Origin: Bifidobacterium breve
GTDB taxonomy: Bacteria; Actinomycetota; Actinomycetes; Nanopelagicales; Nanopelagicaceae
DNA: 64,000 bases
Reading direction: 5' to 3'
NCBI GenBank assembly: GCA_945883755.1
Contig: CAMCXX010000003.1
Location: 1 to 64,000, forward strand
Shown here one piece after another: positions 46,101 to 57,314 of the stretch. Each line of letters starts with the position of its first letter. The first letter of the stretch is position 1. Below the pieces are notes generated by a model, which worked only from the letters and a program-made list of their open reading frames with translations, was not told the origin of the DNA and searched no databases. The translations under genes were made by a program, and so were the position numbers.

Positions 46101-47993
46101 CTATAAATTGTAGGTATCAAAACGAATATCAAAGATTGTTCTACCTTTGACTCCCTGGACCCTTACCACATCATCTAGTAATTCAACCAGGGTTGCTGCT
46201 GAAAGTATATCTGCTCTGATTATCAGATAACTTTTAAACTCATCAATTGAAATTGGTCCAGAAAGTAAAAATGAGTATTTACCTCTTAAGTTTTCCGCAA
46301 ACTTTGCGAGTTCATGAGACTCACCTTTAATGGTTGCCGTCCGATAAAAAGGTGGCAGGTGAGATTGCTCGCGAGCCAGCAAATCATCCATGTTAAAGCT
46401 TTGCCTTCTTAATACTTGTTGGGTTGCGGGATGATTATTTGGAAGCGACAGATAGTAATCGCCACCATCCTTTACTCGTGATAAAAGATCAAACCAAAGA
46501 TGCTTAGACTCCTCTTCAGCACGCAATGTTGCTTGGTTATAAATCCGTTCACAATCAAGCAAGATCACAGCTGAATAAAGCGTGAATGGCTCAGACCCTC
46601 GAGTTGCTATGACAATCTGATTTTGGTTGGGATCAAGTAAGGCCACTTGATCTTTCTTCGAGGTCATAACCTTTATGCCCGACACTGCCTTTCCAATCTC
46701 TTCGGCGGTCCTGTCTATTCCCTTGCTAATAACAAATGGGGATGCATTACCGCAATGATCGCATCGCCATTGCTGGTCAATCTTTGCGCACAAATAACAT
46801 GAAGGAGCAGCATTTTGTTTTTCAATTCTTAGCTTACCGCCACAATTGCATCTAGCCATATTTTTACATTTACTACACAAAAAAACATTGGCATAGCCCT
46901 TCTCGGCTACAGATACTAAAACATTGCCCGATTTGACTGCATCTTTGATCACTGAGATATATGAAGTAGCAGAATCAACATTGTGGAAATTACATTTGAT
47001 GCTTTCTGTAAGATTTAATCTATCCATCCAACCTATTGAGATTAATCTATTGATTTCTAAGGAATGATATGAGTTTAAGAAAATGAGAGATGTGCTGGTT
47101 GATCGCAATAAGGTAACATCACGCGTATTCCAACCGGGAGATCTCTGCTCATAATGCGAAAAATCATTATCATTAACGACAATTACTGTTGAGTTCACTG
47201 GTAATTTAGTAAATGCACCGCTGCGGTTTGCCAAAATAACTACCTGTTGATCACCATTTGCTGCTAAGAAAGATTGATATCTGGCATCTCTATCAGCTCT
47301 TGTATCCAAAGCAACAAAGAGTGATTTAAACTCATTGGCCAAATACTCTTTATAATAATCAAACTCCCGAAAGTCAGAAACTAGGATTAAAACCGAGCCA
47401 AGATTAAATCGGAGCTTGGTTAACTCAACCAAAACCTTGAATTTAAGCACGCCAGCAGGGGGCGATATTGCACATTTTAAATTCAAATCATTTGTAACTT
47501 TTCCATAATCCTCATTCTTAATAAACGGTAAATATTCACTCGTAACTTTTTTGGGAGCATACGAAGTAGAAAGTTGGATAATCCGTTTTGGCTTAGCTGG
47601 GATTGGCGGAATATGATTGTTTAACAAACTCCAAAGATTTCCACCAAATCTATCCCTAACCTTCTGGAAATGAGCCAGATGGCTCTCATCAATCATTCCG
47701 GGATTGCCAATTACCGATAACAGATCCTTGTGCTTTCTGGATTCTTTATCTGTGACGAAACGAAGAATTAAACCTTTTGTAACAGTATGTCCATACTCAA
47801 TCTTTACTAAAGATCCCACGATTGCAGTATCGACGAGATCAGCTGGGACGCGATAGGTATAAATCTGCTCTAAATATGAAACTGGAGTTTCAACAAGAAC
47901 CTCCACCAATAAGCCATCTAATTGATCGCTGCTAGAGAGCTTTATCTTTTTGCTTGGGCTTTTCTGGCGCTTTAGCTTTAGTGGCGCAACCAC
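46101..47993 (-). CDS. priA: Primosomal protein N' (PriA), degenerate helicase motifs
   Basis: N-terminal PriA domain, zinc Cys pairs CSKC/CNCGG/CYLC/CDHC, C-terminal PriA domain; Walker A and DEEH not recognisable. Confidence 0.82.
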   Translation of the reverse strand: MVAPLKLKRQKSPSKKIKLSSSDQLDGLLVEVLVETPVSYLEQIYTYRVPADLVDTAIVGSLVKIEYGHTVTKGLILRFVTDKESRKHKDLLSVIGNPGMIDESHLAHFQKVRDRFGGNLWSLLNNHIPPIPAKPKRIIQLSTSYAPKKVTSEYLPFIKNEDYGKVTNDLNLKCAISPPAGVLKFKVLVELTKLRFNLGSVLILVSDFREFDYYKEYLANEFKSLFVALDTRADRDARYQSFLAANGDQQVVILANRSGAFTKLPVNSTVIVVNDNDFSHYEQRSPGWNTRDVTLLRSTSTSLIFLNSYHSLEINRLISIGWMDRLNLTESIKCNFHNVDSATSYISVIKDAVKSGNVLVSVAEKGYANVFLCSKCKNMARCNCGGKLRIEKQNAAPSCYLCAKIDQQWRCDHCGNASPFVISKGIDRTAEEIGKAVSGIKVMTSKKDQVALLDPNQNQIVIATRGSEPFTLYSAVILLDCERIYNQATLRAEEESKHLWFDLLSRVKDGGDYYLSLPNNHPATQQVLRRQSFNMDDLLAREQSHLPPFYRTATIKGESHELAKFAENLRGKYSFLLSGPISIDEFKSYLIIRADILSAATLVELLDDVVRVQGVKGRTIFDIRFDTYNL

Positions 47994-47996
47994 TGA

Positions 47997-49187
47997 TTAA
48001 TTAACTAAACCTTTCAGTTGATTTACTCGGTCTGTTTTTTCCCAAGTGAAGGTATCTATGTTGCGACCAAAGTGACCATATGCTGCCGTTTGTGAGTATA
48101 TGGGCCTTAACAATTGAAGATCTCGAATAATCGCTGCTGGGCGCAGATCAAAAACAGTACTAACTGCAGTACTGATCTTTCCTAAATCATATTTATTTGT
48201 GCCAAAGGTTTCGATAAATAAACCAACTGGTTGCGCCTTTCCAATTGCGTAAGCGACCTGAACCTCGCATCTATCAGCTAAACCAGCCGCCACAATATTT
48301 TTAGCCACCCAGCGCATCGCATAGGCTGCTGATCTATCCACCTTAGATGGATCTTTTCCGCTAAATGCTCCGCCGCCATGACGAGCCATGCCGCCATAAG
48401 TGTCAACAATAATTTTCCTTCCGGTAAGTCCGGCATCTCCCATCGGACCACCAATTACAAATCGCCCAGTTGGATTTATTAATATCTTCATCTTTGATAG
48501 ATCTAAATCTAAACTTTTTAATATTGGTTCAATTACAAACTTCTTAATCTCCGGCGCTAATTTCTTCTCTAGATCAATATCAGGTGCATGCTGTGATGAG
48601 ATGACTATTGTGTCTAGCGCTACCGCTTTATCACCTTGATACTCAATAGTGACCTGAGTTTTGCCATCGGGCCGCAGGTAGTTCAACTCGCCGCTTTTTC
48701 GAACATCTGTTAACTGCTTAGCTAGTTTGTGCGCAAGTGATATGGGTAGTGGCATTAGCTCAGGGGTGTCATTGCACGCGTAGCCGAACATCAAACCTTG
48801 ATCACCAGCACCTTGCAGATCTAATGGATCTACTGAGGAGCCCACTCTATTTTCAAAGGCATCATCAACGCCTTGAGCGATATCTTGAGATTGCTGACCA
48901 ATTGAAATAGAAACTCCACAACTATTCCCATCAAAACCTTTTTCGGATGAGTCGTATCCAATTCGCAAAACTGTATCTCTGACTATGTTCATTACATCTG
49001 CGTAACCATCAGTTGTTACTTCACCTGCAACATGCACCTGTCCAGTTGTAATTAAGGTCTCTACCGCTACCCTGCTTTTTGGATCTTGCGCAAGTAATGA
49101 ATCCAAAATTGCATCAGAGATTTGGTCCGCGATTTTATCTGGATGACCCTCAGTTACCGATTCAGATGTAAATAAACGATTCTCCAT
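47997..49187 (-). CDS. metK: S-adenosylmethionine synthetase
   Basis: [44 protein letters not shown]. Confidence 0.97.
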
Positions 49188-49191
49188 CTGC

Positions 49192-50391
49192 TCAGCCTAA
49201 CTCAACCAGCAATTGATCAAGCAATATTTCAGAGAGCGTGTCCTTAGAGATAATTGGAATATCAATTACGGTTCCTGATTTGGCGATCAACATCCCGGTT
49301 GTTTGATCTGAACCAAACACTTTTCCATCTGAAACATCATTTACATATATAAGATCTAAGCCCTTAGCAAGAAGTTTATCTCGGCCAGCAGATTGTAATT
49401 TTTGCAGCTCAATAGATGTTTCAGCGGCAAAGCCAACAACTATCTGTCCTTTTTGTTTCATCATTCCTACACCTGCGACAATATCGGGATTTAACACGAT
49501 ATCAATCGGCTGGATCTCTTGCTTGTGCAATTTATGATCTGAACTCTGAGCCACCTTAAAATCTGAGACCGCTGCACTCATAATTAATGCATCCGAGAAT
49601 GGAAATTCAGCTTTTACGACGGTATCCATTTCATCAGCTGTTTCAACAAAGGTGGTAGTAATTCCATCAATTACCGGTAGTTGAGTATTTGCAGCAATCA
49701 AATGTACTTGTGCTCCTCGTTTTGCTGCGGCATATGCCAATGCAAATCCCTGCTTGCCGCTGGATCTATTGCCGATAAACCTAACTGGATCGATATTTTC
49801 ACGTGTTCCACCCGCGGTTATTAATATTTTCTTCCCAAGTAAATCTGCATTTCGAAGTAAATGCTGGTTGATCTCATCAATTATGCGTGCCACCTCTGGG
49901 TATCTGCCGACACCAACATCATCTCCCGTCATTCTTCCGTGATCTGGTTCAATGACGAGGAAGCCTCGTTGGCGCAGGATATTTACATTGGAAATAGTCG
50001 CTGGGTTTGACCACATCTCTGGATGCATAGCCGGAACTAAAATCTTTGGTTTAGTTGATGCTAAAACAATATTTGTTAACAAATCATCGGCTCGACCTTG
50101 TGCCAATCGTGACAAGAGATCGGCGGTGGTTGGAGCAATGACAATCGCACTACAATTTTGAGCTAAAGCTATGTGAGGAACATCTTCCACATCACTCCAG
50201 AGATCGGTATAAACCTTTCTTCCGGAGAGCGCTGCCCATGTAGAAGCTCCGACAAAATTTAAACTAGATTGTGTTGGAACTACTGAGACAACAAAGCCAT
50301 TATCTTGTAACCGTCTTACCAGTTCACAGGATTTATAGGCTGAGATTCCACCACCAATGCCTAAAAGTATCTGCCGACCACGAACAAACAT
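49192..50391 (-). CDS. coaBC: Bifunctional phosphopantothenoylcysteine decarboxylase/synthetase
   Basis: [43 protein letters not shown]. Confidence 0.95.
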
Positions 50392-50400
50392 GGCGATTGG

Positions 50401-50685
50401 TTATTTTGAATTGGTTGGTGCTTGTGGTTCTAAATTTTCGATTGTAAGCAAACCTTCATTTATCTCGCGCAACGCGATTGATAATGGTTTTTCATGAACA
50501 TATGTCTCAACAAGAGGGCCAACATACTCAAGTAATCCCTCACCTAGTTGTGAGTAGTACGCATTAATTTGACGAGCTCGCTTAGCCGCATAGAGAACTA
50601 AGCTGTACTTTGAACCAGCTTTATCTAATAGGGCATCTATTGGTGGATTTGTGATCCCATCGAGTGCTTGATTGCTCATCTTCAA
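50401..50685 (-). CDS. rpoZ: RNA polymerase omega subunit
   Basis: [48 protein letters not shown]. Confidence 0.9.
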
Positions 50686-50721
50686 ACTCCAATTTTCATC
50701 TTTTTATCTATCTTGCTTAAT

Positions 50722-51588
50722 CTAATGAAGGGCTAAAGATACCAGTTCCTGGACAACCTGCTCTACCTTTGTATTTACCAGCACAAAATCAAACTCAGAA
50801 GCGGCCTTCAACTCCTCCTTTGCCTTATTTAAGCGCATTTCCAGTGATTGGCTAGATTCAGTTCCTCTATTTACTAATCGGCTCTCTAGCTCTATCCAAG
50901 AAGGTGGTTCAATAAAGATTAAAACCGCCTCCTTTACTTTCTTTCTGATCTGTCTGGCACCATTTAATTCAATCTCGAGCACCACATTTAAACCTTGTTC
51001 TAAAGCTTTGGTAACTGGTAATGCTGGGGTTCCATACTTTGCGCCAGTGAACTCCGCCCACTCCAAGAACTCATTATTTTCAACCATCTGATCAAATCGT
51101 TCATTGGTCACAAATAGATAATCTTTTCCATCTACTTCACCTTGGCGCAGAGCACGAGTTGTGGCAGAGATTGATACCCAGAAATTATCAAAGTTTCGAA
51201 GCCCTTTTGTAATGGTGCTCTTGCCAACCCCGCTAGGACCTGAAACAACTAAGAGCTTGCCTGGTATAGGCGCAGTTTTCATAAGCAAAAACTCCTCCCT
51301 AAGTAGCTCGCGTTGTTTCTTACCAACGCCACCAATTCTACGCGATCTCGATATTCCAGTTCGCTCAAATATGATATTTACTCTTTTCTCACCAACACCT
51401 GGAACGCAGTTCAATGCTTCCATTAACTTCATACGCTGTATACATTCGCGCTGATCATTGAACAGGTCGAAAAATGACAAGGCGCCATCTGAGATGGATT
51501 TCTTAACAACCGCCCTATCTTGCCTAGCCTTAACCGCCTTCATACCAGCAGCAGATCTAGCCTCATTACTTAATTTTGGTGGCAACAT
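50722..51588 (-). CDS. Fusion: actinobacterial integration host factor (mIHF) N-terminus + guanylate kinase C-terminus
   Basis: mIHF-like MKLMEALNCVPGVGEKRVNIIFERTGISRSRRIGGVGKKQRELLREEF in frame with Gmk GKLLVVSGPSGVGKSTITKGL...SATTRALRQGEVDGKDYLFV. Confidence 0.88.
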   Translation of the reverse strand: MLPPKLSNEARSAAGMKAVKARQDRAVVKKSISDGALSFFDLFNDQRECIQRMKLMEALNCVPGVGEKRVNIIFERTGISRSRRIGGVGKKQRELLREEFLLMKTAPIPGKLLVVSGPSGVGKSTITKGLRNFDNFWVSISATTRALRQGEVDGKDYLFVTNERFDQMVENNEFLEWAEFTGAKYGTPALPVTKALEQGLNVVLEIELNGARQIRKKVKEAVLIFIEPPSWIELESRLVNRGTESSQSLEMRLNKAKEELKAASEFDFVLVNTKVEQVVQELVSLALH

Positions 51589-51593
51589 AAGCT

Positions 51594-52283
51594 TTAAATT
51601 GATTGGTGAATCTCTGTGATCTTATCCTGCATAGCTTGTTCACTATCACCTGAAAATGAAGTTATGGATCTTCCAATAACTACAAAGTCAGCACCGTTGC
51701 TTAATGCTTCCTTAGGTGTCATCACACGATTTTGATCATTAGCTGGTTCACCAAGTAAACGAACCCCTGGAGTAATAATCGTAGAATTTGGCGCGATACC
51801 CTTCATCTGCTTAGCCTCAAATGGTGAACAAATTAATGATGTTGCTCCTGCTGCTACCGCCTGGTCTGCCCAACTTCTTGCCGTTCTTGAAATATCCTCT
51901 GAGTAACCCAAAGATGAGAACTCATTCTCAGAAAAAGAGGTTAGAACTGTAACTGCGGCGATTGAACCACCTGGCAAAGCTTCGGCAGCGGCACGGATCA
52001 TCTTCGGACCGCCAGCTGCATGCACCGTTAAAAACTTTGGATTAAGTGAGGCAACAGATTCAACCGCCCCTTTCACAGTATTTGGAATATCATAAAGTTT
52101 AAGATCGAGGAATAATTCAAAGTCAAACTCTTTCTGTAAAGCAACAACCGACTCTTTCCCATTTAATAGAAAGTATTCAAGCCCTATCTTGAAGTGATTG
52201 ATTAATGGCCTTGATATCTTGATCCAATTACGCGCTTGGCTTGGATCTTTCGTATCGAGCGCCAAGATTATTGGTGAGTTCAT
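51594..52283 (-). CDS. pyrF: Orotidine 5'-phosphate decarboxylase, type 1
   Basis: LALDTKDPSQA...FLDLKLYDIPNTVKGAVE...TPGVRLLGEPANDQNRVMTP. Confidence 0.93.
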   Translation of the reverse strand: MNSPIILALDTKDPSQARNWIKISRPLINHFKIGLEYFLLNGKESVVALQKEFDFELFLDLKLYDIPNTVKGAVESVASLNPKFLTVHAAGGPKMIRAAAEALPGGSIAAVTVLTSFSENEFSSLGYSEDISRTARSWADQAVAAGATSLICSPFEAKQMKGIAPNSTIITPGVRLLGEPANDQNRVMTPKEALSNGADFVVIGRSITSFSGDSEQAMQDKITEIHQSI

Positions 52284-53215
52284 GCGCTTTGCCGATGTGC
52301 GTAACCAATAGCTGATTTAAAATCAGTAAAGCCTCTTTCGATTAAAAGTGATTTAAGTTCGTCGCGAATCTTAATAACTGCGGTCGGATCACTAAATGTT
52401 GCGGTACCTACTGAAATCGCAGTTGCCCCTGCAAGTACAAGCTCTAGCGCATCTCTACCGTTACTAACACCACCCATTCCAACTATTGGTGTATTTGGAA
52501 AAGCTTGATGTACTTGGTAGATAGCGCGTACCGCTATTGGTCTAATCGCCGGTCCAGATAAACCACCTGTTTTGCCACCTAATTTAGGTTGCATTGTATT
52601 TAAATCGATAACCATTCCCAGCAAGGTATTGATCAAAGCCAACCCATCTACACCAGCCTTTATTACCGATGCTGCGATCTCAACTATGTCTGTTACATCA
52701 GGAGATAATTTGGCAATTATTGGGAGCTCTCCACCAATATTTCTTCGAACAGTTTCAATTACCGCACTTGCGGTGTCTGGTTGGCAGGCAAAAACTTGCC
52801 CGCGATTTTCAACATTTGGACATGAGATATTCACTTCAATCGCACTTATTCCTTGAACGGCACGTAATCTCCTGGCTAAAACTCCGTACTCGTCAACGCT
52901 CTCACCAGCAATCGATACAACTACTTTCGCTTTATTCTCAACTAACCAAGGAATATCTCTCTCTAAGAAAAGATCGATTCCTGGTCCTTGTAATCCAATT
53001 GAATTAAGCATGCCACTAGGTGTTTCCGCCATCCGAGGAGTAATTCGACCCGTTCGTGGTTTATTCATAATTGATTTTGTAACTATTGCACCAATCTCTG
53101 AGAGCGGAAAAAATTGGGATAACTCTTGCCCAGAACTGGCGCAACCGCTTGCTGTGAAGATTGGATTTTCAAATCTTTTGCTAGCAATCTTTGTTGAAAA
53201 ATCGAAAGAGTTCAT
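52280..53215 (-). CDS. pyrD: Dihydroorotate dehydrogenase, class 1B catalytic subunit
   Basis: NPIFTASGCASSGQEL...NISCPNVENRG...GGKTGGLSGPAIRPIA. Confidence 0.92.
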   Translation of the reverse strand: MNSFDFSTKIASKRFENPIFTASGCASSGQELSQFFPLSEIGAIVTKSIMNKPRTGRITPRMAETPSGMLNSIGLQGPGIDLFLERDIPWLVENKAKVVVSIAGESVDEYGVLARRLRAVQGISAIEVNISCPNVENRGQVFACQPDTASAVIETVRRNIGGELPIIAKLSPDVTDIVEIAASVIKAGVDGLALINTLLGMVIDLNTMQPKLGGKTGGLSGPAIRPIAVRAIYQVHQAFPNTPIVGMGGVSNGRDALELVLAGATAISVGTATFSDPTAVIKIRDELKSLLIERGFTDFKSAIGYAHRQSA

Positions 53216-54075
53216 TTAGTCAATCTATCTTTCAAACTCTCTTTATCCCAGATAATTGAGGATCCATCCATTACTGGGCCATCAATACAGGTGCGCAACA
53301 TCTTGATATCATCATTAACCTTTACTGGGACAACACAGGTCATACAAACACCAATCCCGCAGGCCATAGACTCTTCGACAGAACATTGATGAACTAGATC
53401 GAAATCTTGCGCGATCTTGTTAATGCTATTGAGCATTGACATCGGACCACATGAATAAATCACCTCTGTATTGAACTCGCGAATTAATCTTGGGATTGAT
53501 TCAGTGATCTGACCATGAACCCCAGCGGTTCCATCATCAGTAGTTAAGGTTAAGGAGGAGACACTGCGCTTGCCCTCAAGAGGTGCATAAATCTTGCTTG
53601 CAGTACTTGCGCCAAGAACCATATCCACTCGGCAACCTCGATTTTTTAATAATTCAGCTAAGGCAAACAAGGGAGCTGAACCATATCCGCCACCGATCAA
53701 CATGGTATTTGCTGCAGTTGTAGGTATTCCAAATGCAGTTCCCAATGGACCAATCAGATTTACAAAATCGCCAATCTGCAATGAACACAACCACTTACTT
53801 CCTGCACCATGTGGTGCAACTACTAACTCAATGGTTCCGCCCAATAAACCCTTATCTGTTGCGCGATAGATAGCAAAGGCGCGTCTTAAAACTGAGGCTG
53901 AGTTTTCACCGCCAACAGATAGCGCAACAAAATTACCGGGCCGAGCAGAAGCTGCGATCTCACCAACGGCAAAGACCATATGGTGGTAGGGACCAACCTT
54001 TTTGTTGCTGATAATCTCCGCATCAATCTGCTTGGCATTTCGATTAATTTTTAACTGATTCAAATCCGCATCCAT
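53212..54075 (-). CDS. pyrK: Dihydroorotate dehydrogenase electron-transfer subunit (FAD/2Fe-2S)
   Basis: [16 protein letters not shown]...[11 protein letters not shown]...[19 protein letters not shown]. Confidence 0.9.
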
Positions 54076-57000
54076 TCTTGAAGGGATTTGATCTCAAAAT
54101 CTGAGTTTTGTAGCGCTGAGATGGCAGATACCGCTGCTCTGAAGCCAGCAATAGTGGTGATACATGGAACGCCCCTTGAAACTGCAGCACTCCTGATCAT
54201 CCAACCATCTTGCTTAGATCCCCTACCTAATGGCGTATTAATAACTAGTTGTACCAAGCCCTGGGTAATTATCTCATTTGCAGATAATTGAGAGTTTTGA
54301 GGGTCTGAGTTTTTGCGAACTAACTCTGAATCGATATTTTTAGATTTTAAGAATTCATGAGTACCTTGAGTTGCATAAATCTTAAACTTCAACTCCGCTA
54401 ACCCACGAGCGCTACGCCAAGCACTCTCTTTATCCCGTTCAGAGAGGGAGATAAAGACTGAACCATTTTTAGGTAAGGGACCAAAAGCTGCGCTCTGACT
54501 CTTTGCAAAAGCCATGCCGAAGTTTGAAGATATTCCCATAACCTCACCAGTTGATTTCATCTCTGGGCCAAGAACCGAGTCAATTCCGGAGCCATCAACT
54601 CTGCGGAAACGATTCCATGGCAAAACCGCCTCTTTCACTGAAACACCATTGGCTTTTCCATCACCGGAAGCTGGTAGCAAACCAGTTGTTCGTAGATCCT
54701 TAATCTTTTGACCAGCACAAATTAAAGCCGCCGCCTTGGCTAGCGCTACTCCCGTTGATTTCGCAACAAAGGGAACTGTTCTTGACGCCCGCGGGTTGGC
54801 TTCAATTACATAAAGTGTGTTGTTAGCCAGCGTTACTGCAAATTGAATATTTATTAAACCTCGAACATCAATCGCCTTAGCTATTTTAGTAGTTGCAGAT
54901 TTAATCTCCTGCAATTGATCTTTATTTAGCGAGATACTTGGCAGTACACATGCTGAGTCACCGGAATGAATTCCAGCCTCTTCTATATGCTCCATTACAC
55001 CAGCGAGAAATACTTCTTCGCCATCAACTAATGCATCCACATCAATTTCTATAGCATCATCAAGAAATTTATCAATTAAAACTGGGTGATTTGGCGTGAT
55101 CGCTGTAGCCGCCGTTATAAATCCTTGCAAGGTATCGGCATCATAAACAATCTCCATGCCTCGACCACCTAAAACATATGAGGGTCTAACTAAAACTGGA
55201 TAACCGATGCGATCAGCAATGACTACCGCCTCTTCGAAGGAGTTGGCCATACCAAACTCAGGCGCCTTCAAATTACTATCCATCAAAATCTTTGCAAATG
55301 CACCACGTTCTTCAGCGAGATCAATGGCATCAGGAGATGTACCTAAGATATTGACTCCCGCCTCTTTTAAACCACGAGCTAATCCAAGCGGGGTTTGACC
55401 GCCAAGTTGGGTGATTACACCAAGAACTGGACCAGCAGCGATCTCTGCATTTATAACTTCTAGTACATCTTCAAGGGTTAATGGTTCAAAGTACAATCGA
55501 TCTGAAGTGTCGTAATCGGTGGAGACTGTTTCTGGATTGCAATTAATCATTACTGTCTCAAAACCGGCCGCCCTCAAAGCAAATGAGGCGTGTACACAAG
55601 AGTAATCAAACTCGATTCCTTGACCAATCCGATTAGGTCCACTGCCTAAAATAATTATCGCCTCTTTACTTCTAGTAAGTACCTCACTCTCCTCTTCATA
55701 ACTTGAGTAATAGTAAGGAGTAATCGCTGCAAACTCACCGGCGCAGGTATCAACTGTTTTATACACTGGCTGCAGAGAAAATTTCTGACGTAGCGCGTAA
55801 ATTTCAGCAATTGATACACCTCTAATCTCTGAGATCTGTTCATCAGAGAAACCCATCTGTTTTGCGGCACGCAATAACTCTTTAGTTAATTCACCTTTGG
55901 CATTCAACTCCTTTGCTAACTCATTTATTACAACTATCTGACCTAGAAACCATGGATCTATCTTTGTCGCATTAAAAACCTCATCAATACTTGCTCCAAG
56001 ATGCAACGCTTGCTGAACTTGCTGCAATCTCGATTGGGTTGGAACTCGCATCTGCTTCATTAAACTCGCTAAATCCCCATCTTTCCAAGAGAAGGAGTAA
56101 CCTGATTTTTCAACTGAGCGTAAAGCTTTCTGCAACGCTTCGGGAAATGATCTGCCAATTGCCATCGCTTCGCCAACACTCTTCATCGTTGTAGTTAAAC
56201 GATCATCAGCTTCCGGAAATTTTTCAAATGCAAATCTCGGTACCTTTACAACGACATAATCAAGTGCCGGTTCAAAAGAGGCAGGGGTAGATTTTGTAAT
56301 GTCATTCTCAATCTCATCTAAGGTATAGCCAATCGCTAATTTTGTTGCAATCTTGGCTATTGGAAATCCGGTTGCTTTCGAAGCTAGTGCTGAAGATCTT
56401 GACACTCTTGGATTCATCTCAATGACAATGATTCGCCCATCAGCTGGATTGACCGCATACTGAATATTGCAGCCACCTGTTGCAACACCAACCTCGCGAA
56501 TAATTGCAATTGAAAGATCGCGAAGTTTTTGATACTCATAATCAGTTAATGTCATGGCTGGAGCAACGGTTATTGAGTCTCCAGTGTGCACACCCATTGG
56601 ATCTATGTTTTCGATACTGCAAACAATTACTACATTATCCTTATGGTCCCGCATGACCTCTAGCTCGTACTCTTTCCAACCAATAATTGATTCCTCAAGC
56701 AATACCTCTGTAGTTGGACTGTGTCGCAATCCTGCGCCCGCAATCTGTTGTAAATCTCCTTCATTGTAAGCAATTCCTGACCCAAGACCACCCATTGTGA
56801 ATGAGGGGCGAACAACAACTGGGTAATTTAATTCCTTTGCCGCTGCCAAGCACTCTTTCATAGAATGGGCAATAATTGATTTAGCTGAATCGCCACCAAT
56901 TTTTGCGACAATTCCTTTAAATATTTCGCGGTCCTCTCCGCGTTTAATCGCATCAATATTTGCGCCAATTAACTTAGTACCAAATTTTTCAAAAGATCCA

Positions 57001-57314
57001 CGTTCATGCAATGCCATCGCAGCATTTAAAGCAGTTTGTCCGCCAAGTGTTGCTAATACCGCCGATGGTCGTTCTCTCTCTAGAATTTTCTCAATTACCT
57101 CCGGAGTTATCGGTTCTATATAGGTTGCATCTGCAAACTCTGGATCGGTCATTATCGTGGCAGGATTTGAGTTAATTAAAATAACTCTGATCCCCTCACT
57201 TTGTAGAACTCGACAAGCTTGGGTGCCAGAGTAATCAAATTCGCAAGCCTGACCGATAATTATGGGTCCGCTACCAATAACTAAGACGCTTTCAATGCTG
57301 GTATCTCTAGGCAT
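54060..57314 (-). CDS. carB: Carbamoyl-phosphate synthase large subunit
   Basis: 1084 aa; [25 protein letters not shown]; two ATP-grasp halves; C-terminal MGS-like domain. Confidence 0.97.

Follow-up and report, generated by a model that had tools for sequence, protein, structure and literature searches.

Whether a nucleoid protein and a metabolic enzyme can be made from one gene, and whether the enzyme is also made on its own, is the question raised by a locus on the minus strand of the DNA stretch analysed here (the window, 64,000 nucleotides). In Mycobacterium tuberculosis, gmk and rpoZ lie downstream of mihF, and deletion of mihF is polar on both; mIHF is an essential protein there and one of the ten most abundant (PMC6155035). 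In the window, positions 50,722–51,588 form a single uninterrupted frame of 288 aa, with an ATG start at 51,588 and a TAG stop ending at 50,722. A covalent link between an essential nucleotide kinase and a global DNA-binding protein would not be expected. The coordinates of the locus are collected in Table 1.

Table 1. Coordinates and properties of features at the mIHF-gmk locus (positions in the window).
Feature	Position	Strand	Remarks
mIHF-Gmk fusion ORF, 288 aa	50722..51588	-	stop-free across 11 genera
Actinobacterial IHF domain, about residues 1-100, helix-two-turn-helix	51289..51588	-	NF041260, PF22525, PDB 4itq/6tob
Guanylate kinase domain, residues 110-288, P-loop GPSGVGKST and GMP-site motifs	50725..51261	-	TIGR03263, PDB 1znw/1s4q
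Internal Shine-Dalgarno AGGGAGGAG	51292..51300	-	anti-SD duplex -10.4 kcal/mol
T5 run at junction, not conserved	51287..51291	-	11/21 in genus, 0/34 in g37, g7, g6
Internal ATG, proposed free-Gmk start	51280..51282	-	ATG/TTG in 21/21 genus; NTG 52/55, four genera
rpoZ (omega subunit), ATG at 50679	50401..50679	-	next gene in conserved mihF-gmk-rpoZ cluster; SD-strength yardstick
Upstream pyrF, orotidine-5'-phosphate decarboxylase-like, named from sequence	51594..52283	-	stop just before fusion start

One frame encodes two complete domains

The N-terminal part of the frame matched the curated model NF041260 (actino_IHF) at residues 4–100 with 83 bits against a cutoff of 60, covering positions 3–101 of the 102 in the profile, and Pfam PF22525 (S13-like H2TH) matched residues 46–100. 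Its sequence matches in the PDB were 4itq (sIHF) and 6tob (mIHF). Residues R22, R25, R83, G87 and G89 of this domain are invariant, and it is predicted to bind DNA. NF041260 is typed as a domain by NCBI, so the curators may already have seen IHF inside larger proteins and the mIHF-Gmk architecture is possibly visible in databases.

The remainder of the frame matched TIGR03263 at residues 110–285 with 225 bits, which is above the curated cutoff of 160, and covered positions 1–177 of the 180 in that profile; the Pfam Guanylate_kin match was 164 bits. The motifs SGP-GVGKS, S-x-TTR-x-x-R, E and YGT are invariant among 42 fusions, and GMP kinase activity is predicted. This half is 48% identical to M. 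tuberculosis Gmk, which is the closest match by fold as well as by sequence (PDB 1znw/1s4q). An AlphaFold2 model of the fusion (mean pLDDT 91, pTM 0.75) has two well-formed domains joined by a short linker of ~10 residues at about residues 98–111. With both profile models above their cutoffs, the sequence-only reading was correct that one frame holds a complete mIHF-like protein and a complete Gmk.

The genome itself is a 998 kb assembly in 38 contigs, 81% complete, and the single gmk found in it is the fusion locus. In single-contig relatives, one match spans both the mIHF and the Gmk domains. Both domains keep their motifs and neither was found in a second copy, so the gene content implies that the fusion locus must supply all of the mIHF and all of the GMP kinase activity.

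The fusion occurs in many genera of the family

We searched 296 genomes of the family and read 118 fused loci in detail; most of the compared genomes are multi-contig drafts, many probably metagenome-derived. The genes are fused in 11 of 17 genera (g1, which is the genus of the present genome, and g2, g3, g4, g6, g7, g8, g11, g13, g37 and g40) and separate in the other six (g5, g9, g10, g12, g38 and g39). Most likely, the group corresponds to freshwater acI actinobacteria (order Nanopelagicales). Within g1, the fusion is open in all 21 genomes with a readable junction, including the single-contig genomes G001, G005 and G013. Because the frame is stop-free in 11 genera, the fusion is beyond chance, and the comparison indicates that it is genuine and not a sequencing error.

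In several genomes with separate genes, mihF and gmk either overlap by ATGA or have an in-frame stop between them. Loci L130 and L131 (genomes G110 and G102, g39) and L133 (G096, g38) have mihF and gmk in the same frame, parted by an in-frame TAG; in g39 a fusion may have been split again. The fused genera are not a single clade in an rpoB tree (AU p 0.001), and the distribution of fused and separate genes needs three changes. The earliest branches are the unfused g5, g38 and g9. The fused g4, g3 and g40 form one group, and a second group holds the unfused g39 and g10 together with the fused g8 and the fused g11, g13, g1, g37, g6 and g7. A single fusion followed by re-splitting and repeated fusion both fit this tree. 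A longer linker in g8 hints at a separate fusion event in that genus.

We also examined a class-wide sample of 395 genomes for proteins with mIHF plus guanylate kinase. The same architecture was found throughout family f36 (16 genomes fetched), which we suspect to be the Microbacteriaceae, and in genus g103 of family f34. The f36 fusions (L214–L229, in G634, G559, G492, G405 and others) have no internal start codon. Because f36 is a different family of the class, its fusion is probably independent. In g103, L230 (G475) reads as one frame and is possibly a third, isolated fusion; L231 (G506) was one open frame in the search, although re-anchoring of the domain failed. G054 and G336 looked like fusions at first and were rejected, as the gmk frame there opens only after the mIHF domain. 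A nucleoid protein tethered to a GMP kinase had been called unusual from the sequence alone; this is only half right because the architecture recurs across the whole of a second actinomycete family. With 11 fused genera, re-splitting or repeated origin and a second fused family, there is a natural test of whether the mihF-gmk-rpoZ neighbourhood reflects function.

An internal start codon looks selected

On the minus strand, the junction has a CTT codon, then AGGGAGGAG-TTTTTGCTT-ATG, then AAA. This places GGAG 9 nt ahead of an internal ATG whose first base is 51,282, exactly as the sequence-only reading had described. If the ATG is a start for free Gmk, it should be conserved beyond what the protein requires. 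An NTG codon (ATG, GTG or TTG) lies at codon 3 or 4 after the conserved junction Glu in 21/21 members of g1, 13/13 of g37, 15/18 of g7 and 3/3 of g6; the other three g7 members have lost it. This retention is not protein conservation, because the two junction columns hold varying residues (M, L, V, I or others) and in the rest of these genes TTG makes up only 22% of Leu codons and GTG only 20% of Val codons.

To allow for kinship, codon changes were counted on a tree from which the junction had been left out. Although the two junction columns changed codon 46 times, NTG is present in 95% of the sequences (52/55, four genera). As a comparison, 199 other pairs of adjacent columns with no fewer changes reach at most 47% NTG, with a mean of 9%. 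Within g1, the start also appears to move rather than disappear: 11 members have the ATG, and TTG stands one codon upstream in 10/10 members without the ATG versus 1/11 with it (Fisher 3e-5, uncorrected for kinship). On independent branches every differing pair goes in the predicted direction, with only 4–6 supported pairs, which is too few for a decisive sign test. Together, these data indicate that the internal start codon looks selected beyond protein-coding need.

Pairing at the ribosome-binding site was computed with a generic anti-SD sequence, and by this measure the internal site of the present gene is in the top 3% of codon positions in its own gene and beats both the fusion's own site and that of rpoZ. 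Across genomes, the median rank of the internal site is in the top 5% of codon positions in g1 and the top 3% in g7. Across 20 genomes of g1 the mean pairing is -7.8 kcal/mol at the internal site, compared with -6.3 at rpoZ and -2.3 at the start of the fusion itself, some of the fusion starts having been taken one codon late. Thus the site is comparable to those of real genes in g1 and g7, and pairing in g37 and g6 is weak. Within the Shine-Dalgarno sequence, Glu is encoded by GAG in 52/55 sequences, as against 42–87% at other conserved Glu columns and 11/26 at the same position in fused relatives without the start. AAGGAG is present also in fused members of g40 that lack a start codon, so the Shine-Dalgarno sequence alone proves nothing and the start codon carries the case.

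A true fusion that may also make free Gmk

We favour a true fusion that would also yield free Gmk from an inherited internal start kept by selection, with a probability of roughly 0.7. The sequence-only reading had offered this as one of three possibilities, and the clade-wide fusion and the start and Shine-Dalgarno sequence kept beyond coding need in g1 and g7 support it. In g37 and g6 the start codon is likewise retained, with a weak Shine-Dalgarno sequence.

To judge from unfused relatives, the ancestral mihF and gmk were probably neighbours with an NTGA stop/start overlap. Joining in frame, which is seen in many genera, would let read-through give an mIHF-Gmk protein. Selection would then have preserved the former ribosome-binding site and start of gmk within the fused frame in g1 and at least g7, as the codon conservation suggests, and g37 and g6 would have retained the start codon with a weak Shine-Dalgarno sequence. 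Ribosomes would initiate twice, at the mIHF start for a ~32 kDa fusion and at the internal ATG, TTG or GTG for a ~20 kDa free Gmk, and the internal start would let Gmk exceed the DNA-binding form and be untethered from it.

A fusion keeps Gmk from being made in smaller amounts than mIHF, and an internal start would tip the ratio further to Gmk. For a nucleoid protein that is abundant elsewhere, such a ratio is surprising; it suggests that these streamlined cells need little mIHF or that the tether is of use to them. A more speculative proposal, which we regard as rather unlikely, is that the fusion was selected for tethering a GTP-making enzyme to the chromosome or for nucleoid binding responsive to guanine nucleotides, with several origins in actinomycetes, and that some genera divide Gmk between tethered and free forms through a selected internal start.

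Other explanations of the junction

The strongest competing explanation is that only full-length mIHF-Gmk is made and that the Shine-Dalgarno-like sequence and the NTG are an unused relic of the gmk start. Fused g3, g4, g13, g2, g8 and part of g40, as well as f36, have no internal start, so a working fusion does not require one; a fusion alone suffices, and the fused kinase alone can apparently serve in these genera and families. Yet an unused relic should decay, whereas NTG has persisted, with exchange among ATG, GTG and TTG, through the codon changes counted above, and 10 members of g1 have the start one codon earlier instead of having lost it. We therefore consider this explanation unlikely. 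Members of g40 (L072–L119) offer a further observation: in rows reading EFMK, ~30 members have ATG (three have TTG) right after the junction Phe codon, always followed by A and mostly without a Shine-Dalgarno sequence, which could be a relic or a weak start.

Two proposals involve a change of frame at the junction. The sequence-only reading had suggested a slippage-controlled locus that makes two proteins. A conserved slippery run was not found among the 55 sequences compared: five Ts follow the Glu codon in about half of g1 and in none of the g37, g7 and g6 sequences (Table 1), so slippage is unsupported and was rejected as a conserved mechanism. What does persist in some genera is NTGA, with TGA in the +1 frame, which is present in 20/21 members of g1, 13/13 of g37 and only 6/18 of g7 and looks like the scar of an ancestral stop/start overlap.

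In the second of these proposals, a +1 frameshift would bring some ribosomes to the TGA overlapping the NTG, where they would stop to give free mIHF and re-initiate to give free Gmk, while the rest make the fusion. The NTGA of g1 and g37, the A that also follows ATG or TTG in the EFM and EFL rows of g40, and a Phe TTT codon just before in 21/21 members of g1 are all consistent with this, and it would account for a DNA-binding protein in excess of the enzyme. However, g7 retains the start with NTGA in a minority of members, the T5 run is not conserved, TTT is in any case used for 78% of the Phe codons of the genus, and NTGA is also explained if A is favoured right after a start codon. We consider a frameshift improbable.

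Lastly, an assembly or homopolymer error in a genome that really has four Ts and separate genes, also suggested from the sequence alone, has practically no chance of being correct: one T fewer does give GAG TTT TGC TTA TGA, as had been noted, and restores an ATGA overlap as in unfused relatives, but the nearest species (G018/L038; L003), with 97% identity across the fusion, likewise has five Ts and an intact frame, single-contig relatives are fused, and the fused members of g1 and of the 11 genera mostly have differing junction sequences. When the locus was aligned across related genomes, the close relatives were fused and the four-T split was not seen in the 21 readable genomes of g1.

Relation to known systems

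The N-terminal half resembles mIHF (Rv1388) and sIHF (SCO1480) in matching NF041260 above its cutoff, in its H2TH fold and in its position just before gmk and rpoZ. By contrast, the solved and studied members are free proteins of ~100 aa and here the domain is the N-terminal part of a 288 aa enzyme fusion. Likewise, the kinase half is like Gmk (Rv1389, PDB 1znw/1s4q) in having a complete TIGR03263 match, P-loop and GMP-site motifs, the sequence identity given above and the same fold, and unlike Rv1389 it is preceded N-terminally by a DNA-binding domain, ~10 residues ahead of the first strand. No paper describing an mIHF-Gmk fusion was found in the open-access literature.

The proposed expression resembles that of Salmonella spaO, where an internal in-frame start lets one frame give a full-length and a shorter C-terminal product (PMC13059759). 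The difference is that the short product here would be a complete metabolic enzyme that was ancestrally its own gene. Conservation of the NTG suggests that a fused gene may still be expressed on its own, and as a caution, start-site annotation may list just one of two products.

The fusions of f36 and of g103 in f34 have the same domain order in a single open frame but differ from the present locus in having another linker, G+C-rich codons and no internal start codon. In the window, translations read by eye place the fusion in a compact cluster of same-strand genes at 46,101–57,314 (minus strand) that carries carB, a pyrD electron-transfer subunit, pyrD, pyrF, mihF-gmk, rpoZ, coaBC, metK and priA, so that the nucleoid gene is flanked by pyrimidine and purine steps.
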